Shown here: in pieces, positions 4,820-18,906 of the stretch
How positions within the stretch are numbered: the first letter of the stretch is position 1
How the letters are laid out: the number at the start of each line of letters is the position of its first letter
Notes under the pieces: model-generated
What the model was told of the DNA's origin: nothing
Database searches by the model: none
What the model saw: the letters and a program-made list of their open reading frames with translations, nothing else
NCBI RefSeq assembly: GCF_023115425.1
Contig: NZ_CP096032.1
Coordinates: forward strand, 1,178,001-1,242,000
DNA length: 64,000 nt
Direction of reading: 5' to 3'
From: Synechococcus sp. A10-1-5-1
GTDB taxonomy: Bacteria > Cyanobacteriota > Cyanobacteriia > PCC-6307 > Cyanobiaceae
Translations under genes and position numbers: made by a program

Positions 4820-4846
4820 CGGGACGACAAAGGGAACCGCCACGAC

Positions 4847-5056
4847 TCAAGCTTGAGGTTGGGCCAACTGGCTTTGGAGCTGCCCAAGGACCTCCTCTAA
4901 GCGGGTGAGTTCCGGGTGATCCGCCAAGGTGCGATCAATCTTGGCCTGGGGAAGCTTGAGCTTCTGCCCCATGGCAATGACGTCTTGGCGCAGACGATCC
5001 CGATAGGCGATGAGCTGCTCAATGGACTCCTGGATGTCCTGAGGGGTTGCGTCCAT
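4847..5056 (-). CDS. Small conserved-looking protein of the PBS region
   Basis: A 69-residue hydrophilic protein that is predicted helical (IQESIEQLIAYRDRLRQDV, ELTRLEEVLGQLQSQL) and could form a short coiled coil. I do not recognise a named family. It is the first gene of the small protein-lyase-pebA-pebB operon and ends 27 bp before the next start. The ATG at 5056 is preceded in frame by a GTG at 5059. Tight spacing and codon use like its neighbours argue that it is real. A structural or chaperone role in bilin handling would be speculation. Confidence 0.65.
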   Translation of the reverse strand: MDATPQDIQESIEQLIAYRDRLRQDVIAMGQKLKLPQAKIDRTLADHPELTRLEEVLGQLQSQLAQPQA

Positions 5057-6011
<955 letters not shown>

Positions 6012-6026
6012 ATCAACGAGGGTTAG

Positions 6027-6563
<537 letters not shown>

Positions 6564-8283: not shown

Positions 8284-8709
8284 ATGACCTGCTTCGTTCT
8301 CTCACACAACCTGCAGGTTCACTCCGATGCAGTGCCAGGTCTGACTGCTGACGCGCTGGCAGAAGGTCTAAAAGTGAGCAGCCCACACATCGCCGTCGCC
8401 GAGCCACTGGAGCACCCCCATTGGCTTGTCCGCATCGAGTCGGAGCTTGACGCCGCCGCCCTTGCTCTGGAGCTAACACGCTCTTGGCGTGCAATGCGCA
8501 AGTCCATGGGCCACGCAGAGGACCATGAGCTGCTTGCACTGGGTGGACGCAAAGACAGCCAGGGGATGCCGGGCTCACCTCTCCAACAAGGGAGCTGGGG
8601 CGTTGACGTCGTCGAAACCAGCGATGGGGACGCCTTCCTGAAGGCCATTAATTGGGACGGACTGAAGCAAGGCCGTCCCGTTGATGGTGTCTTCGAAGAG
8701 CGGGGCTAA
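8284..8709 (+). CDS. Conserved-type hypothetical protein of the PBS region
   Basis: A 141-residue soluble protein of unknown family. Visible features are a regular beta-alpha pattern (PHWLVRIESELDAAALALEL), the segment WRAMRKSMGHAEDHELLALG and an acidic C-terminus. There is no signal peptide or membrane segment. The ATG follows CTGCC at 8284. It is divergent from the cpeF candidate (62-bp gap) and convergent with the CpcD-like gene, the two stops overlapping slightly near 8706-8709. Codon use matches the neighbours. Position among PE lyases suggests a role in PE assembly, but nothing in the sequence proves it. Confidence 0.7.
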   Translation: MTCFVLSHNLQVHSDAVPGLTADALAEGLKVSSPHIAVAEPLEHPHWLVRIESELDAAALALELTRSWRAMRKSMGHAEDHELLALGGRKDSQGMPGSPLQQGSWGVDVVETSDGDAFLKAINWDGLKQGRPVDGVFEERG

Positions 8710-10729: not shown

Positions 10730-11341
10730 CTAATCGCTCAGGCCAACGAGCCAGTCTTCTTGAAGGTGTTCCGCGAGGAAAGCCAACCGCTCAAACTTCA
10801 GCAATCCATGCTCTGAACCCCAAACCAACTGATCGGTATCAGGGTCAAAGCCTCGATCTCGACTCGCCCACGACGACTGATCAACAAACACCTCGCTGAC
10901 GAGGTAAGTGAGCTTGCCATCGCGCGGGACCAAGCACCCCTTACCCGGCTCAACAGAACCTTGATATCCAAGCTTGGAGTCACCTGTGAAATGCATCGAG
11001 CAACCGCAACGCGGCTGCAGGCGATCAATCTTGATCTCATTTAGCAGTGGAAGGTGTTGCGGCGCACCCGCGACTCGTTCGGCGTTACTGATACCAAAGT
11101 TCTCCACAATGTGAATTCCAGACTCACCTGCCCGTAAACGGTGGACGCCCTGGCGGTAAGGGCGCCAGGGATCGTGGTCATAACTTTGCTCGGAATAGAA
11201 GCCGGGTGCCTGAAGCACATCCCAGGGGAGCGGTAAAAAGAAGATATTGATATGGGCGAACTTGCTGGGATCTGCCTGGGCCTGGGCACGGTTGCTGTAG
11301 TGACCGCAGAGCGTGCGGGCAAAGAGAAGCGAATCGTGCAT
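10730..11341 (-). CDS. cpeT: T-type phycobiliprotein lyase CpeT
   Basis: A 203-residue lyase of the CpcT/CpeT family, which loads the C-terminal beta-subunit cysteine (PE equivalent of Cys153/165). Family features are FARTLCGHYSNRAQAQADPS, FAHINIFFLPLPWDVLQAPG, FYSEQSYDHDPWRPYRQGVH and the Cys pair in QPRCGCSMHF. The ATG overlaps the cpeS stop as TGATG, so the two are translationally coupled. It is the middle gene of cpeS-cpeT-cpeR. Confidence 0.9.
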   Translation of the reverse strand: MHDSLLFARTLCGHYSNRAQAQADPSKFAHINIFFLPLPWDVLQAPGFYSEQSYDHDPWRPYRQGVHRLRAGESGIHIVENFGISNAERVAGAPQHLPLLNEIKIDRLQPRCGCSMHFTGDSKLGYQGSVEPGKGCLVPRDGKLTYLVSEVFVDQSSWASRDRGFDPDTDQLVWGSEHGLLKFERLAFLAEHLQEDWLVGLSD

Positions 11342-11874
11342 CAGAGCGTGAGCCGCCGGACTTCGGAAGCAAACGACGTTTGCAGCACTCCCGAACCCTC
11401 CGAAGTACGAAGGACTGATGAACGGCAGCGCACATGCTCTGAGACAAACCAGATCCGCTCTTCCGCAATGGACTGGCCGTACTTTGTGGTCAACACAAAG
11501 GTGCCATCAGAGAGAAAACGGTATTGAGAGATGGCCTGCTCTGCCTCGGCATAACCGACGCTGCGAAGCAGAGCGCCACTGGTCTGATCCTCAGGAACAG
11601 GAACGAGAACACAAGAGCCACTCGAGACCTCTGAAGGGTCGTCAGGCTCCCAGTCGCTCTCGGCACTCCACTCCATTCGGAAGGGGCACTGAATCAACGC
11701 TGGATCCTGGGAAGTGGACTCAAGGAGGTCCAGGACCCGTTGATCATGAGATGTGAGCTGCTCAATCGTGATCTGACTGAGCACCTCTTCGAATTGCTGA
11801 AAAGCAAGGGAATGACCACTTCGCATGGAGCGCCAGGTTCCTGCGCTGCGCTCAACAAACGACGTCAGATTCAT
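11341..11874 (-). CDS. cpeS: S-type phycobiliprotein lyase CpeS
   Basis: A 177-residue lipocalin-fold lyase beginning MNLTSFVERSAGTWRSMRSG then HSLAFQQFEEV, the typical CpeS start. Other family motifs are CPFRMEWSAESDWEPD and RIWFVSEHVRCRSSVL. CpeS attaches phycoerythrobilin to the Cys82 site of PE subunits. It is coupled to cpeT downstream and preceded by a small ORF ending 11 bp before its ATG. It is the second S-type lyase in the window; the copy upstream of pebA is clearly divergent from it. Confidence 0.88.
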   Translation of the reverse strand: MNLTSFVERSAGTWRSMRSGHSLAFQQFEEVLSQITIEQLTSHDQRVLDLLESTSQDPALIQCPFRMEWSAESDWEPDDPSEVSSGSCVLVPVPEDQTSGALLRSVGYAEAEQAISQYRFLSDGTFVLTTKYGQSIAEERIWFVSEHVRCRSSVLRTSEGSGVLQTSFASEVRRLTL

Positions 11875-12914: not shown

Positions 12915-14531
12915 TCACATCACTTCAGTGATCGAGACAATCCGCCCACCACGGCGATGGATGTAGCCCAACTGAGACGTCATGTCCTTGCCCGAGACCA
13001 GATAGCTGGCATTCGGAGTGCGCTGACGACCACCTGCGGGCTGCGCCTGAACAACGATCCGGTAGCGCTTGCCAGTGGGTTCAGTGGTGCCTGAAGCGGC
13101 AGCCACCCGATTGATGCGCTGGGTGGTGCTACTCCAATTGGTGGGGACACCATTCGTGGCCACGGATGCCACGAGACTGGAGGCCGACTGAACAGTGTCA
13201 CTCGCTGCATAGCCCTGTGACAGGGAGAGATGGCGGTTGAAGGCCACCTGGGAGCGACCGGCTTCGGTTGCAATCCGTTGGTAAGGAATCGTGTCCTCAC
13301 CGAAGACTTCCTGGTACTCGGCAGAGTCCAGATAGCTGTTGATTTCAGCTTCATAGCCCTCATTGGCCAGACGCTGAATGTGTTCGCTCACCTCAGCTTG
13401 AGAGGTGGGAGCACGACCCAGGAGATGCTTGAAGTTGAGCTCGATGAAGCGGTAAGGAGCGTTGCTTTCAAAGAAGCGACGGCTGTACTCAGCGGACAGG
13501 GCAATGGCCCGAACAAATTCACGGGTACTGGAGAGGCCTTCGGCAAACTTGCTCTCCGCAGTCAGGCTGCGCTCGCTCTCCATGAGATGGGGGTTACCCA
13601 TCACCTGGCGGTAGGCAGAGCGCATCAGTGCCTGAATCTGATCGGCGGAGTCGCCGGAGGTGCGAGCAAACACTTCCTGCTCGCGCTGACCAAGACCAAA
13701 GCCCACATACAGATCGCCACGCATCGGAGCGCTGTCTCCACCGTCAGACAGAGCGCGCTTCACCGGAGCAAACGCCGTGCGACCGCTGCTCGTTCCAGTG
13801 AAACCGCCAGCTCCGCCAGCGCTGCGGTACACCTGCGCTGGAACCTTGATCGACAACCTGTTGCCCTTAGCGAGGTTGCCGAGGAGTTGGCTGCTGGCTC
13901 CGATCGCAGTGTCACTACCGGCAAAGTTTTGCTCGAGTGCTGCAATGCGGTTAAAGCTCGCCTGGGGCATCCCAGGAGTCGAACCCCAGCTGCGGGCATA
14001 GGGAACGGTGTCTTCGCCAAAGGCTGCGAAATACTCGTCTGAATCCAACAGATGATCGATCGCCGCCTCGAACCCCCCAGTGGCCATCTGGGCTACCTGG
14101 GCCGTGACTTCGGCTTCGCTTGATGGTCCACGGCCGAGCAGATGCTTGAAGCTCAGCTCCACGGAGCGGTGCGGACCAACCGCTTCGAAGTAGCGAGCGC
14201 GGTAGAACTCGGATTTCGCCAGCTGGCGAACGAATTCACGCACCGAGATTTCGCCTTGGCGCAGACGGGACTCAGCACTGATGCAGCGCTCACTCTCCAT
14301 CGGCTGCACGTTACCGAAGACCTGGCGATAAGCCGCTCGAATCACAACAGCAAGTGCCGTCTCGTCGTCAGGAGCAAATTCGTCGCGAGCTGGCGAAAGA
14401 TCCTGGTTACGGAAAGACCCGTTGGTCAACGCCGCATCCGCCGATGGCATGCGGTTGCGGCTGTAGGAAACGGGACCCTCGATCAACTGGGTGGCACCGA
14501 AGCCAAGGGAATTCGAACGATTGGCAGGCAT
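12915..14531 (-). CDS. cpeC: Tandem-domain PE rod linker (two linker domains plus CpcD)
   Basis: A 538-residue linker with two complete PBS linker domains: residues about 60-180 (VIRAAYRQVFGNVQPMESER, ELSFKHLLGRGPSSEAEV) and about 300-420 (LMRSAYRQVMGNPHLMESER, ELNFKHLLGRAPTSQAEVSE). A CpcD-like domain ends the protein (YIHRRGGRIVSITEV). One polypeptide could therefore organise two PE hexamers. In marine Synechococcus a fused linker of this kind is, to my recollection, called CpeC; naming across strains is not uniform. The second domain closely resembles that of the downstream 232-aa linker, suggesting duplication. Confidence 0.85.
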   Translation of the reverse strand: MPANRSNSLGFGATQLIEGPVSYSRNRMPSADAALTNGSFRNQDLSPARDEFAPDDETALAVVIRAAYRQVFGNVQPMESERCISAESRLRQGEISVREFVRQLAKSEFYRARYFEAVGPHRSVELSFKHLLGRGPSSEAEVTAQVAQMATGGFEAAIDHLLDSDEYFAAFGEDTVPYARSWGSTPGMPQASFNRIAALEQNFAGSDTAIGASSQLLGNLAKGNRLSIKVPAQVYRSAGGAGGFTGTSSGRTAFAPVKRALSDGGDSAPMRGDLYVGFGLGQREQEVFARTSGDSADQIQALMRSAYRQVMGNPHLMESERSLTAESKFAEGLSSTREFVRAIALSAEYSRRFFESNAPYRFIELNFKHLLGRAPTSQAEVSEHIQRLANEGYEAEINSYLDSAEYQEVFGEDTIPYQRIATEAGRSQVAFNRHLSLSQGYAASDTVQSASSLVASVATNGVPTNWSSTTQRINRVAAASGTTEPTGKRYRIVVQAQPAGGRQRTPNASYLVSGKDMTSQLGYIHRRGGRIVSITEVM

Positions 14532-14656: not shown

Positions 14657-15541
14657 TCAGCTGACGGGGGTGATGCTTGCGATCTTTCCGCCCTCGCGGT
14701 GAATGCGCTTGAACTGCTCGGAGAGCTTGTCGAAGGGCACGTAGTAGACACGGTTGCCGCGGGTGTAACGGGACACGCGACGAACGTTGTTCGCGCTGTA
14801 GGCCGTGACCTCGACGCGGAAGGTTTTGCCTTGGTCGGAAGCACCGACGCCAAGACGGGTTGCTGCATCCGCCAGGTTCTTCGCAGGACGGAAGCTGAAG
14901 CCCTGGGACTCCACAGAAGAAGGAGGAACAACCGCCATCGGGCGGTTCTGATAAGCGGCACCGCCCAACTTGCTGGAAATGCCAGCCAGGTCACCCTTCA
15001 GGCTGCTGCTGCTGTTGCCGCGAAGCAGCTGGAAGCTCCAGGTGAATTCCTGCATCGTCCCGCAGCTTTCGGTCTTCCAACCGCGCTGATAGGGAACGGT
15101 CCACTCGCCGAACGTGTTCTGGTAGTCGTCGGAGTCCAGGAAGCTATCGATATCGGCTTCGTAGCCCTTGGCGTCCAGGCGCTCGGCGTGATTCCTCATT
15201 TCCTGGAAATCAACGGGAGCCCGGCCCAGCAGGTGGCGGAACGCCAACTCGATGTAGCGATAGCGGGGGCAAGCGTCGAAGAAGCGCGCCTTGTAGAGCT
15301 CGCTCTTGGCGATGCTGCGCACGAATTCGCGCACGCTGATTTCACCCAGCTTGAACTGGGATTCGGGGACGAGCTGACGCTCGCTCTCCATCACGTAGGC
15401 GTTGCCCAGGACCTGCTTATAAACAGCCGTGATGATCTGCTCTTTCTTGGCGTCGTCATCGCCAGGAATGAGCTCGAGGGGGGCTTCGCTCTCTTGAGAG
15501 AAGCGCTCAACCCCAAGGAGAGAGGCAGGACCGAAGGGCAT
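14657..15541 (-). CDS. PBS rod linker, MPFGPAS-type (CpeC/MpeD-like)
   Basis: A 294-residue rod linker with one PBS linker domain (residues about 30-160: ITAVYKQVLGNAYVMESERQ, ELAFRHLLGRAPVDFQEM) and a C-terminal CpcD domain (VPFDKLSEQFKRIHREGGKI). The start MPFGPASLLGVERF is the kind seen in CpeC-type linkers of freshwater PE strains. In marine Synechococcus the corresponding gene may be called mpeD, even in strains without PE-II. A role in joining phycocyanin to the first PE disc, or within PE discs, is likely. I leave the symbol open because of the naming conflict. Confidence 0.85.
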   Translation of the reverse strand: MPFGPASLLGVERFSQESEAPLELIPGDDDAKKEQIITAVYKQVLGNAYVMESERQLVPESQFKLGEISVREFVRSIAKSELYKARFFDACPRYRYIELAFRHLLGRAPVDFQEMRNHAERLDAKGYEADIDSFLDSDDYQNTFGEWTVPYQRGWKTESCGTMQEFTWSFQLLRGNSSSSLKGDLAGISSKLGGAAYQNRPMAVVPPSSVESQGFSFRPAKNLADAATRLGVGASDQGKTFRVEVTAYSANNVRRVSRYTRGNRVYYVPFDKLSEQFKRIHREGGKIASITPVS

Positions 15542-15653: not shown

Positions 15654-16325
15654 CTAGCCCCCGAGGCTGGTGCGCGTCGTCTCACGGGTAAGCGGGTTCC
15701 AGGTGTCCAACTCCTTGTAAGGCCTGGACAGCAGTGCCGCCCGCTCAGACTCGAGTCCCAAGCAGCCCGAAAAATCAGCACCGGAAAGCGTTTCTGCTCC
15801 CTCGAGGCGAGCGGAGGTCAGATCGGCAGCCCTGAAATCTGCAAAGTCCAACTGACAGCCCGAGAAGCTGGCGCCCACACAGGACGCTCCCCGTAAAACA
15901 GCGTGACGCAGGTCAGCACCAACCAAGCGAACGCCATCCAGCAGCGAACCACTGAGGTCTGCTCCGCTGAGATAAGCCCCCATCAAATTGCATCCACGCA
16001 GGTCCAACCCGCGCAGATCCGCGCTGTTCAGAAAAGCGCCATTCAGCTTGGCCCCAGGACCGACAGCTCCCGAGGTGCGGTAATCAAAGCCTTCAGGGAA
16101 GCGCGTGAATGCGTCGAAACGCGCCAGGCGTAGATCAGCCCCATCCACCACACAGGCGCTCAGATCGGCCCCTCGCAAATCAACCCTGCAGAGCGCAGCA
16201 CCCTGAAGATCAATCCCAGCAAGGTCCCGTCCACTCCAATCGGCACCTCTGGCATCAAGAGGAGCCGCAGAACCGACCGTTGGCAGCAGGTCTTCAGGGG
16301 GCTGCCACTGCAGAAGGTCAAGCAC
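15654..16325 (-). CDS. Pentapeptide-repeat protein
   Basis: A 223-residue protein whose residues 25-190 are built of A(D/N)LXX pentapeptide repeats (DLRGADLSACVVDGADLRLA, DLRGLDLRGCNLMGAYLSGA). This predicts a right-handed quadrilateral beta-helix. There is no signal peptide. The start is GTG at 16325. The last 35 residues are non-repetitive. It lies between the CpcL-like linker and the rod linkers, in the same direction. Such proteins often mediate protein contacts; a PBS assembly role is inferred from context only. Confidence 0.85.
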   Translation of the reverse strand: MLDLLQWQPPEDLLPTVGSAAPLDARGADWSGRDLAGIDLQGAALCRVDLRGADLSACVVDGADLRLARFDAFTRFPEGFDYRTSGAVGPGAKLNGAFLNSADLRGLDLRGCNLMGAYLSGADLSGSLLDGVRLVGADLRHAVLRGASCVGASFSGCQLDFADFRAADLTSARLEGAETLSGADFSGCLGLESERAALLSRPYKELDTWNPLTRETTRTSLGG

Positions 16326-16370
16326 TGGGTTCAGTGAAGTGAGGGCGAAACGTTAAGGACTTGGCAGAGA

Positions 16371-17099
16371 TTAGGAGTGGCGCAGAGCCGCCAAAGCGAC
16401 AGTCAGCAACACACGGGTGATCTCGACGCCACCGACCACGGCCACAGCGAGCCACGCCTTCAGGGCCCAAGCCGGAGGCTGACCATTGACCCAAGCCTCT
16501 GAAACCTGACCGGACGACGCCCAAGCTTCAGCAGAAACCGGAGCACGTTCGGCCATGGCATCGCGCCAATCCGAGCCATAGCGGGGGAATTGCTGATAGA
16601 TCGGCAGCTCACCGGTGGCTCGACCCGGCAACAGCCTGGAGCGCTGGGACGGAACCCGATCAAAACCGAAGTTAGAGATGTATTCGTCGCTATCTAGCAG
16701 CTGATCCACAAAAGCCGGGAAGCCCTGCTCAGCAATCACAATCGACCAGCGCAACCGCTCCTCATTGGAGTAAACCTGCCTGCCTAGGACACGACCGATG
16801 ACCTGGTCGATCATGCGGTAATTGGAGTTGCACTGGTAGTAGTCGCTCAGGAACCGATCCGAAAGAAGCAAGCCACGAATAAAGTCCTTCGTCGTAATCG
16901 AACCATTGAGGTATTGCGACTCTAAATAAGGCTCTCGATCAACCTTCAGGGCATGAAAGAAGATTTGCTTGTACGACTTTTCAATGAGAGCTTTACGCTC
17001 GTCTTGAGCGAAAGGAGCACTGCCACCCTGCATGGAAGCCTTCAGGGGGACCCGGGAGTTCTGCGTTGTAAAAGGAGCTTCCAGGAGAGGCAGAGCCAT
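16371..17099 (-). CDS. cpcL: CpcG-type rod linker with hydrophobic C-terminus (CpcL-like)
   Basis: A 242-residue linker with the CpcG start MALPLLEAPFTTQNSRVPLK and one PBS linker domain (residues about 30-160: SDRFLSDYYQCNSNYRMIDQ, VIGRVLGRQVYSNEERLRWS). The last 33 residues are strongly hydrophobic (AWLAVAVVGGVEITRVLLTV), consistent with a membrane-anchoring helix. That is the mark of CpcL (also called CpcG2), which tethers core-less phycocyanin rods to the thylakoid near photosystem I. Ordinary CpcG1 proteins have a polar C-terminus. The hydrophobic stretch includes one Glu and one Arg, so its membrane insertion is inferred rather than certain. Confidence 0.75.
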   Translation of the reverse strand: MALPLLEAPFTTQNSRVPLKASMQGGSAPFAQDERKALIEKSYKQIFFHALKVDREPYLESQYLNGSITTKDFIRGLLLSDRFLSDYYQCNSNYRMIDQVIGRVLGRQVYSNEERLRWSIVIAEQGFPAFVDQLLDSDEYISNFGFDRVPSQRSRLLPGRATGELPIYQQFPRYGSDWRDAMAERAPVSAEAWASSGQVSEAWVNGQPPAWALKAWLAVAVVGGVEITRVLLTVALAALRHS

Positions 17100-17160
17100 G
17101 AACCATCAATGCGCTGCGGCCATAGTGCAATGGGCCCCGGCCGCTCCCAGAAAAAGCTTC

Positions 17161-17748
17161 TTAGCTCTTTACAGAGCCACCAAAAAGCAGTTCATGTAAA
17201 TTATCAAAAGAGTCTTGAAGCAAGGCCAAGACAGGAGATCGGCCATACAGCGCTTCAAAGGATGCGCTCGAAATCGCGCTCAACTGGCTCAAAGCAAAAG
17301 CGAGACCATCCGTGGGAACATTCATCAGCTGATACAGCTCATTCAAGGCATCAATAGACGGCTGATCACTGAAGCGAGGACGGGCTGCGGCAACGGCGTA
17401 AATCACAACACGAAAGAAGTTCTCGCAATCACGCCAACAAGCCTCGGCACGCTCTGGAGTTGCCAAAGCACCACCGGCAACAAACAACTCGGGATGCTGC
17501 AGCGCCAAAGCTGAACGGGCCTCACGAACACAAGGATCAACCAGACCCTTCAGCGCTAATAACTGATCAGAAGGTAGGTTGGAATAAACCGAAAACAAAG
17601 CCAACTCAGCATCACTGAGCTGATGCTTACAGCGATTCGCCTCTACAAGGATTTGCAGGAGATCAGCAGGAAGATCCCCGAAAAGGTCGACGTTGAAGAC
17701 TTTTGCCCGACGAATCAGAGATTGCAGATTGGAGTTGCCGTCAACCAT
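17161..17748 (-). CDS. Divergent phycobiliprotein-like protein
   Basis: A 195-residue protein whose segment EACWRDCENFFRVVIYAVAA aligns with the bilin-site helix of true subunits in this window ([16 protein letters not shown] of Cpc[17 protein letters not shown] of CpcA). Cys104 corresponds to the Cys82/84 bilin site and Asp107 to the conserved Asp that contacts the bilin. The following INALNELYQL-like region also matches the globin-type helices. The rest is highly divergent with a longer N-terminus. It could bind a bilin or act as a structural relative. Its ATG lies inside the end of the upstream gene (34-bp overlap). Confidence 0.65.
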   Translation of the reverse strand: MVDGNSNLQSLIRRAKVFNVDLFGDLPADLLQILVEANRCKHQLSDAELALFSVYSNLPSDQLLALKGLVDPCVREARSALALQHPELFVAGGALATPERAEACWRDCENFFRVVIYAVAAARPRFSDQPSIDALNELYQLMNVPTDGLAFALSQLSAISSASFEALYGRSPVLALLQDSFDNLHELLFGGSVKS

Positions 17749-18134
17749 CCGTGCCTCTCAAAATAAAGCGCCCAGGCAATCGTGCCAATCAAACCGGGGC
17801 AGTGCTCGAGGGCCATGGAGGCAAGATTCTTGGAAACACCAAGGCTCAAGAGGATCTCTGTGAACTGCTCCTTGGTCTGAACCGTCTCAGGACGAATAGC
17901 AGAGCCGACGACCCAGGTCAATTTTGTCGCCTCAAGATTTCCGCCTGAATTCTCACAAGCCAAAAATAGATTGGCTTCATTCCCTTTTACAGCGGCCTCG
18001 TCTTGCCACATCTGAATATAATCTTCTCGAAGATCAATCCGTAGGACTTCTCCGTCTCGATCAAACCGAAGCTCACGATCTCCACCGGACAGCAGACGAA
18101 GCCTGTCAATGTCGGAATCAAGAAGGCGCTTCAT
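17715..18134 (-). CDS. Hypothetical protein of the PBS region
   Basis: A 139-residue soluble protein with no family I recognise. The N-terminal half is rich in charged residues (DSDIDRLRLLSGGDRELRFD); the C-terminal half looks alpha-helical (FTEILLSLGVSKNLASMALE). It starts 28 bp after the CpcT-like gene ends and overlaps the phycobiliprotein-like gene by 34 bp. The overlap and shared direction suggest a coupled pair. Codon use is AT-richer than in the flanking chromosome. Confidence 0.7.
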   Translation of the reverse strand: MKRLLDSDIDRLRLLSGGDRELRFDRDGEVLRIDLREDYIQMWQDEAAVKGNEANLFLACENSGGNLEATKLTWVVGSAIRPETVQTKEQFTEILLSLGVSKNLASMALEHCPGLIGTIAWALYFERHGWLTATPICNL

Positions 18135-18162
18135 TGCTCAACCGAGAGTCCGTAGAGCGAAC

Positions 18163-18816
18163 TTAATTCCAACTGGGGGGTATTTCTTGACTCCAGTCGC
18201 AAAGCTTTTCAAAACGGAATGGGCCGGCAATTGATCCCCAAAGGTGCTCATGGGTGTCAGGATCGTAGCCACGGTCAATGGTTTGCATCGTTTGAGGGGT
18301 CAACTCAAACTCGCTTAACAGATAGGAATCACGGCCTTTGCGAAATACCTTGCAATGACAGCCAGGTTCAACCTTTCCAATGAATCCTTCACTGGTCTTA
18401 TCCACCCAATAGGTGCAACCGGAAAGCAGCCTTAAATCAGTCTCGACAAGCTCGGCGAGCCTTGCTGGCTGCTCAACAGCACCGTAAAAACGCTCAGGAG
18501 ACTCGATCGCGAAATTCAAAATGGAAAGGGTCCCATCTTCGAGATACCCCGGCCGCAGCACTCTGACCCTATAAGGTTCATTCGGTGCAATCGCATAAGC
18601 CTGCTCTAGCAAGAGGCTATGGGCCTGAAGATGAGGAATTGGGCGAATACGAACGAGAATATTTCCATACAGCGGTGGGTTTTCAAATGCCTGCGCTTGA
18701 TTGCTAAAGCTGCCCGACAGCATTTGCGTTAGCTCACCAGCAAGATCTGCCACTTGACTTAAATCAATAAAATCAGGATAACACTCTCTTGGATTAACCA
18801 AATCCAACGTCGTCAC
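18163..18816 (-). CDS. CpcT/CpeT-family phycobiliprotein lyase
   Basis: A second T-type lyase. Family motifs are SFSNQAQAFENPPLYGNILV, YAIAPNEPYRVRVLRPGYLE, the FRKGRDSYLLSEFELT region and DRGYDPDTHEHLWGSIAGPF. CpcT enzymes attach a bilin to Cys153 of beta-phycocyanin, so this copy likely serves phycocyanin while cpeT serves phycoerythrin. Names such as cpcT or rpcT are both possible. The start is unclear: the open frame extends to 18906, directly abutting a divergent gene. I chose the GTG at 18816 because homologous sequence begins only about 20 residues later. Confidence 0.78.
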   Translation of the reverse strand: MTTLDLVNPRECYPDFIDLSQVADLAGELTQMLSGSFSNQAQAFENPPLYGNILVRIRPIPHLQAHSLLLEQAYAIAPNEPYRVRVLRPGYLEDGTLSILNFAIESPERFYGAVEQPARLAELVETDLRLLSGCTYWVDKTSEGFIGKVEPGCHCKVFRKGRDSYLLSEFELTPQTMQTIDRGYDPDTHEHLWGSIAGPFRFEKLCDWSQEIPPSWN

Positions 18817-18906
18817 AATGCAAGCGCACCGCCTTCTACTTGCAGTCCAGACGGTTGCGTCTTGCCCTAAAGCCGATACCATCCAGCCAATTCCAGATCT
18901 CCTCAC

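Follow-up and report, generated by a model that had tools for sequence, protein, structure and literature searches.

The aplA gene block

Examination of a 64,000-nucleotide stretch of the Synechococcus sp. A10-1-5-1 genome (contig NZ_CP096032.1, positions 1,178,001 to 1,242,000; hereafter the window, whose own coordinates are used throughout) revealed five neighbouring minus-strand genes encoding, in this order, a T-type bilin lyase, the 139-residue protein Unk4, the allophycocyanin-like phycobiliprotein AplA, a CpcL-like rod linker and a pentapeptide-repeat protein, with all five open reading frames (ORFs) lying where the initial annotation had placed them. That annotation proposed that the genes may make up a separate small antenna. 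Comparison with other genomes suggests another reading, which we favour with some reserve, in which AplA would be a bilin accessory protein dedicated to phycoerythrin, with Unk4 as its partner, and the block would mix three functions. The features of the block are the following.

18163..18816, minus strand: T-type bilin lyase, CpcT-like (PF06206, CpeT/CpcT family, 1.6e-53); ORF open to 18906
17715..18134, minus strand: unk4, 139-aa protein of unknown function (no Pfam family)
17161..17748, minus strand: aplA, allophycocyanin-like phycobiliprotein of 195 aa (PF00502 Phycobilisome, 2.3e-18)
17428..17439, minus strand: predicted bilin attachment motif of AplA, codons Cys104-Trp-Arg-Asp107 (from row conservation)
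16371..17099, minus strand: cpcGII, CpcL-like rod linker of 242 aa (PF00427, 6.6e-35)
16389..16445, minus strand: linker tail, most hydrophobic 19-residue stretch, residues 219-237 (Kyte-Doolittle 1.91)
15654..16325, minus strand: unk5, pentapeptide-repeat protein (PF00805, 1.4e-28)

The block is an already known one, its order having first been described in 2007 in ocean Synechococcus. According to the accessible text of Six et al. 2007 (PMC2246261), the 5' block of the rod region in marine Synechococcus reads unk1/unk2-(cpcT)-unk4-aplA-cpcGII-unk5, with cpcT following unk2 in two strains, and the order in the window is the same, with unk4 upstream of aplA, cpcGII downstream and the pentapeptide-repeat gene unk5. 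In the strains covered by that text aplA is tied to PEII, whereas in the genome examined here it accompanies a single cpeBA pair with no second phycoerythrin, a combination shared with published Type IIB clusters from brackish water.

The intergenic gaps from the lyase through unk4, aplA and the linker to unk5 are 28, -34 (an overlap of unk4 with aplA), 61 and 45 bases. Between 14400 and 19000 the number of terminator-like sites, 6, is no higher than the 6.6 expected by chance, and it is therefore plausible that the block is read as a single transcript.

Association with phycoerythrin

Two genome samples were used. The phylum sample comprises 244 genomes, of which 105 have a CpeB-profile match at E <= 1e-40 and were counted as phycobiliprotein-bearing, those above the phycoerythrin cut-off being phycoerythrin-positive; four of the 34 AplA matches, at about 1e-26, were dropped, three because they coincide with CpeB-profile (phycocyanin) matches and one (G367) by score only. 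The Cyanobiaceae sample comprises 201 genomes, 118 of them with a CpcG/L linker. AplA was counted in 55 of the 201 among the matches listed in a profile search (at least 129 bits), a count that supersedes the 40 of 201 found by a single-sequence search at E <= 1e-20; matches of about 100 bits, spanning the profile only from positions about 16-25 on, are other phycobiliproteins and were excluded.

Across the phylum, AplA is present in 27 of 33 phycoerythrin-positive genomes as against 3 of 72 phycoerythrin-negative, phycobiliprotein-bearing genomes (Fisher 4e-16), and this overlap was reached in 0 of 20000 shuffles of the labels within families. Among the Cyanobiaceae with a CpcG/L linker the corresponding counts are 52/57 and 3/61 for AplA and 46/57 and 3/61 for unk4, and in the genus to which the window belongs AplA occurs in all four phycoerythrin-positive and none of the seven phycoerythrin-negative genomes. 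The three AplA-positive, phycoerythrin-negative Cyanobiaceae (G096, G119, G183) were counted as exceptions and are probably assembly gaps, to judge from their contigs, which in G119 and G183 end just past the pentapeptide gene and in G096 (L043) carry phycoerythrin-type linkers. The phylum-wide link was stated in no title or abstract found in a literature search that covered papers outside subscription. It is this link of AplA across the phylum, together with that of Unk4 within Cyanobiaceae, that is worth testing.

Conservation of gene order

Of the 55 AplA-positive Cyanobiaceae, 40 entered the comparison of gene order, with G177, G008, G119 and G183 as additions and the remaining 11 left out. 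In 38 of the 40 loci unk4 is the gene immediately upstream of aplA, a gene order thus beyond chance, and it precedes aplA in 34/34 named picocyanobacterial loci, which overlap partly with the genomes of the 40-locus set. The linker is more variably placed, lying directly downstream of aplA in 20 loci, upstream in 8 and in neither position in 12, one of which is cut by a contig end and three of which have the linker 1.3 kb downstream; cpcT stands upstream of aplA at a distance of no more than 1 kb in nine of the 40. In four phycoerythrin-negative congeners (G009, G064, G115, G150) cpcT adjoins cpcL upstream of cpcBA, without unk4, aplA or unk5 in the stretches compared, that of G150 ending at a contig end.

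Outside Cyanobiaceae, 66 aplA loci were compared, several of them short stretches and at least three genomes being present twice. A phycoerythrin-cluster gene was detected in the nearby DNA of 37, a pentapeptide gene in 20, a CpcG/L linker in three, CpcT in one and unk4 in none. As judged from gene order, the conserved unit is unk4-aplA: this pair held together within Cyanobiaceae, while the four-gene unit of the initial annotation, including lyase, bilin protein and linker, did not.

A locus of another genus (L188, positions 4826-5365, in G008 of genus g9) has a divergent aplA adjoining cpeBA, with no unk4 found, so that a link of AplA to phycoerythrin need not involve unk4. At a further locus (L100, 8380-9594, from the same metagenome-assembled genome, MAG, as L043) unk4 and aplA share a single open frame, either because the two genes are truly fused or because of an error in a base.

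The AplA protein

Residue conservation was examined in 60 aligned AplA rows. The bilin Cys and the Asp are kept in all 60 and the CWRD motif in 59, in agreement with the bilin site assigned to the phycobiliprotein-like protein by the initial annotation. Regarding the alpha/beta pairing positions, Arg91 and Tyr95 are kept in 60/60, and position 13 is Asp in 50 and Asn in nine, among them the window protein. The predicted structure (mean predicted local distance difference test, pLDDT, 93.0) has its best rows in the VIA comparison with allophycocyanin (AP) beta-18 chains (Z 14.9, root-mean-square deviation, rmsd, 3.6 over 148 residues), with other phycobiliproteins tied within Z 1, and Foldseek gave a phycobiliprotein match at E 2e-5 (template modelling score, TM, 0.61; rmsd 8.7). 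The protein thus has a phycobiliprotein domain and, in the model, a globin-like fold. An N-terminal extension of about 20 residues is indicated by the alignment of model residue 20 with residue 1 of AP and phycocyanin (PC) chains.

These features, namely the phycobiliprotein fold, the intact bilin Cys and the extension of about 20 residues, are held in common with the AplA family of Fremyella diplosiphon, a likeness that is by description, the aligned rows being those of other AplA proteins than that of Fremyella itself. The original AplA is said to have an extension of 28 residues relative to allophycocyanin, differing from the approximately 20 found here, and reportedly has substitutions at the alpha/beta pairing positions. 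An AplA protein would be expected to carry a covalent chromophore in vivo and to be absent from phycobilisomes; to our knowledge, no role has been assigned to this phycobiliprotein in two decades.

AplA is the most divergent of the block genes compared. When distant loci are compared with the window, the median identity is 34% for AplA (n=37), 53% for the linker (n=32), 62% for the pentapeptide protein (n=36) and about 80% for the phycocyanin subunits, some phycobiliprotein rows being paralogues. The nearest named relatives of the window AplA, from one Vulcanococcus MAG and one Synechococcus MAG, share 80% identity each, and aligned non-Cyanobiaceae members share 25-28%, with one at 32%. No AplA match was detected among 50,697 phage records.

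The T-type lyase

The accessible part of PMC2327270 describes T-type lyases as specific for the Cys-beta155 site, with CpcS acting at Cys84 sites. The genome has two T-type lyases, the window lyase and CpeT. With the CpcB Cys-153 column as the reference for the T-lyase site, 59 of the 60 AplA rows have no Cys within three columns of this position, whereas the CpcB of the window does have Cys153. Since there are just two such lyases and AplA lacks a T-lyase site, the window gene most likely encodes CpcT, serving phycocyanin beta-Cys153; that CpeT is the sole other member bears on this role indirectly. A T-type lyase dedicated to AplA was rejected on the same grounds. Other Cys residues are present further on in 54 of the 60 rows, and AplA may carry a second bilin elsewhere.

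The lyase shares PF06206 with CpcT, the lyase of phycocyanin beta-Cys153/155, and is the genome's sole non-CpeT member of the family; its activity is here a prediction, with which RpcT and CpcT specificity (phycocyanobilin, PCB, or phycoerythrobilin, PEB) would both be compatible. Because the Pfam match on the ORF 18163-18906 begins only at residue 59, a start near 18816, as taken in the initial annotation, is plausible. The gene product (18163-18816) also has a match, at E 1.3e-20, to phrog_488, a CpeT-like auxiliary family of phages, with no phage genes seen nearby.

The rod linker

CpcL is a linker between rod and membrane, associated with photosystem I in rods that lack a core. The linker of the window has a PF00427 domain and a hydrophobic tail (Kyte-Doolittle values over 19 residues peak at 1.91, at residue 219), and a comparable maximum of 1.55-2.36 was found in 32 of 33 loci, the remaining locus being cut by a contig end; such a tail is missing in the genome's other CpcG (L015). 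A hydrophobic C-terminal helix is given as the CpcL criterion in the accessible part of PMC9415938, and the designation as CpcL-like is upheld by the domain together with this conserved helix. The alignment profile (A3) matches the solved CpcL chain 8hfq_n at E 9.4e-62 (profile positions 1-236 of 250), which shares the domain and the C-terminal helix, although several CpcG chains of solved structures are scored above CpcL by the same profile. A CpcG/L match was found in all 55 AplA-positive Cyanobiaceae genomes, but also in 63 without AplA, and in G045 the linker is about 1.3 Mb away from aplA.

Unk4

The gene unk4 was found in 66 of the 201 Cyanobiaceae genomes and in 10 of the 244 genomes of the phylum sample, all ten being Cyanobiaceae. 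Pfam gave no match on the window protein and only scattered single-member matches on 28 members (best 0.04). The structure model (pLDDT 90.9) gave no significant fold match (Foldseek against the Protein Data Bank, PDB, best E 1.4; VIA best Z 2.8; viral models best E 0.88), a result which does not by itself make the predicted fold a new one. By sequence, the best PDB hit was to designed armadillo repeats (E 0.01), and profile comparison linked Unk4 neither to the DUF2656 protein nor to the 103-aa protein of the phycoerythrin cluster.

Phycoerythrin is present with neither AplA nor a detected CpcG/L linker in 17 of the 66 genomes with unk4, the frame being broken or split in five of these 17 copies (G020, G029, G055, G058, G073). 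G080 and G105 keep unk4 with aplA missing, and the accessible text of Six et al. 2007 (PMC2246261) gives the same for WH7805. The genomes with broken copies (for example L192, about 5056-5214, in G058) are small and phycoerythrin-bearing, as if unk4 were being lost.

Proposed roles and alternative explanations

In a Vulcanococcus-like Cyanobiaceae strain making one phycoerythrin, the block would form the phycobilisome rod region at its 5' end, with three functions side by side: a CpcT lyase acting on phycocyanin beta-Cys153; a membrane-anchored rod linker (cpcGII/CpcL) used with or without AplA, plausibly, by analogy, for rods feeding photosystem I; and unk4-aplA, followed by the linker and then unk5, as an accessory unit linked to phycoerythrin. 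Because AplA retains the fold and the full Cys/Asp site although no other gene of the block diverges as much, it is more likely to be a bilin-carrying accessory protein, whether a photosensor-like one or one that accepts bilin or serves as a chaperone while phycoerythrin is assembled, than to be a rod subunit present in stoichiometric amounts. Unk4, the Cyanobiaceae-specific neighbour and probable partner of AplA, probably acts on phycoerythrin maturation itself, since it persists in some relatives that have phycoerythrin and neither AplA nor a detected CpcG/L linker.

Several observations weigh against the dedication of AplA to phycoerythrin with Unk4 as partner. AplA occurs without phycoerythrin in three phylum genomes (G236, G414, G416), and AplA is missing from 6 of the 33 phycoerythrin-positive genomes of the phylum sample and from 5 of the 57 phycoerythrin-positive Cyanobiaceae that have the linker, while co-occurrence in itself gives no mechanism. 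The absence of unk4 from 66/66 non-Cyanobiaceae aplA loci and from 10 of the 55 AplA-positive Cyanobiaceae means that AplA does not depend on Unk4 everywhere. The pairing residues kept in AplA may reflect a structural role in rod or core, and at 28 of the 40 Cyanobiaceae loci the linker directly flanks the unk4-aplA pair, upstream or downstream.

This adjoining linker is also among the points in favour of the antenna of the initial annotation, in which AplA, Unk4, the T-type lyase and CpcL would build a separate small photosystem I rod antenna with AplA as terminal emitter or base disc, as are the adjacency of the genes with their short gaps, the hydrophobic linker tail, the intact bilin site and pairing residues of AplA, and the allophycocyanin beta-18 chains as best, if tied, structural rows. 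We nevertheless regard such an antenna as improbable. The gene set is not random, as the annotation held, but lyase, linker and bilin protein as one dedicated antenna are not supported: AplA is without a T-lyase site in 59 of 60 rows, cpcT-cpcL without aplA was found in 4/4 phycoerythrin-negative congeners examined, and outside Cyanobiaceae a linker accompanies aplA at three and CpcT at one of the 66 loci. Moreover, 12 of the 40 loci have no adjoining linker (with the contig-cut locus and the three at 1.3 kb included), the linker of G045 is distant from aplA, and AplA tracks phycoerythrin. The neighbouring CpcL linker and CpcT lyase are consequently no longer read as private partners of AplA.

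Alternatively, AplA might be a soluble or membrane-associated bilin photosensor regulating phycoerythrin genes, as proposed for Fremyella AplA, with Unk4 as signalling partner. It is cited as a new class of photosensors in the accessible text of Six et al. 2007 (PMC2246261), its bilin site is intact while the rest diverges fast, and cpe genes lie near aplA at 37 of the 66 non-Cyanobiaceae loci; however, an output domain was found neither in the 195-aa AplA nor in Unk4 by Pfam and structure models, and signalling is a role that the literature cited puts forward as a proposal. We consider a photosensor possible but rather unlikely. Neutral hitch-hiking, with the rod region inherited as one block and AplA a decaying phycobiliprotein, would fit the high divergence of AplA and the movement and rearrangement of the rod region as a block described in the same text (Six et al. 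2007, PMC2246261). This explanation appears very improbable given that the bilin Cys, the Asp and the Arg/Tyr positions are conserved in 60/60 rows across families, that AplA and phycoerythrin go together within individual families, too, across the phylum, and that aplA is intact in single chromosomes with differing surroundings.

Beyond the dedicated accessory role favoured here, we can suggest only tentatively that AplA is a bilin protein devoted to phycoerythrin throughout the phylum, such as an acceptor of bilin or a light-sensing checkpoint by which the supply of bilin is coupled to the assembly of phycoerythrin, and that Unk4 is a new factor for phycoerythrin maturation in picocyanobacteria, possibly of an unseen fold, partnering AplA where both occur. 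The tie between AplA and phycoerythrin, together with the uncharacterised picocyanobacterial neighbour, narrows the question of the role of AplA to a concrete test. A direct action of Unk4 on phycoerythrin would make this protein an assembly factor so far missing from the picture of phototrophs that are very abundant in the ocean.

Other phycobilisome genes of the window

Further genes of phycoerythrin and its rods lie downstream of the block.

14657..15541, minus strand: phycoerythrin-type rod linker (PF00427 and CpcD), the next gene downstream of unk5
11341-11874, minus strand: CpeS family gene of the phycoerythrin cluster (PF09367, 2.8e-60)
10730-11341, minus strand: CpeT family gene of the phycoerythrin cluster (PF06206, 2.8e-58)
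5451..6557, plus strand: cpeBA, phycoerythrin subunit pair (NF058508, above cut-off)

This cpeBA is the sole phycoerythrin subunit pair found in the genome, with one NF058508 match at E <= 1e-80 and in agreement with the PF00502 inventory. Between 242 and 4843, cpcBA lies beyond an opposite-strand ferrochelatase gene and adjoins a pebA-like bilin reductase gene and a CpeS-family gene, an arrangement that combines features of the Type II and Type IIB clusters as far as these are described in the accessible published text, with aplA present and cpcBA not upstream of it. A DUF2656 protein (PF10847, E 3.2e-39) is encoded at 8284-8709 within the phycoerythrin cluster and has counterparts next to cpe genes in G177, G080 and G105, and a linker of 538 aa at 12915-14531 has two PF00427 domains and one CpcD domain.

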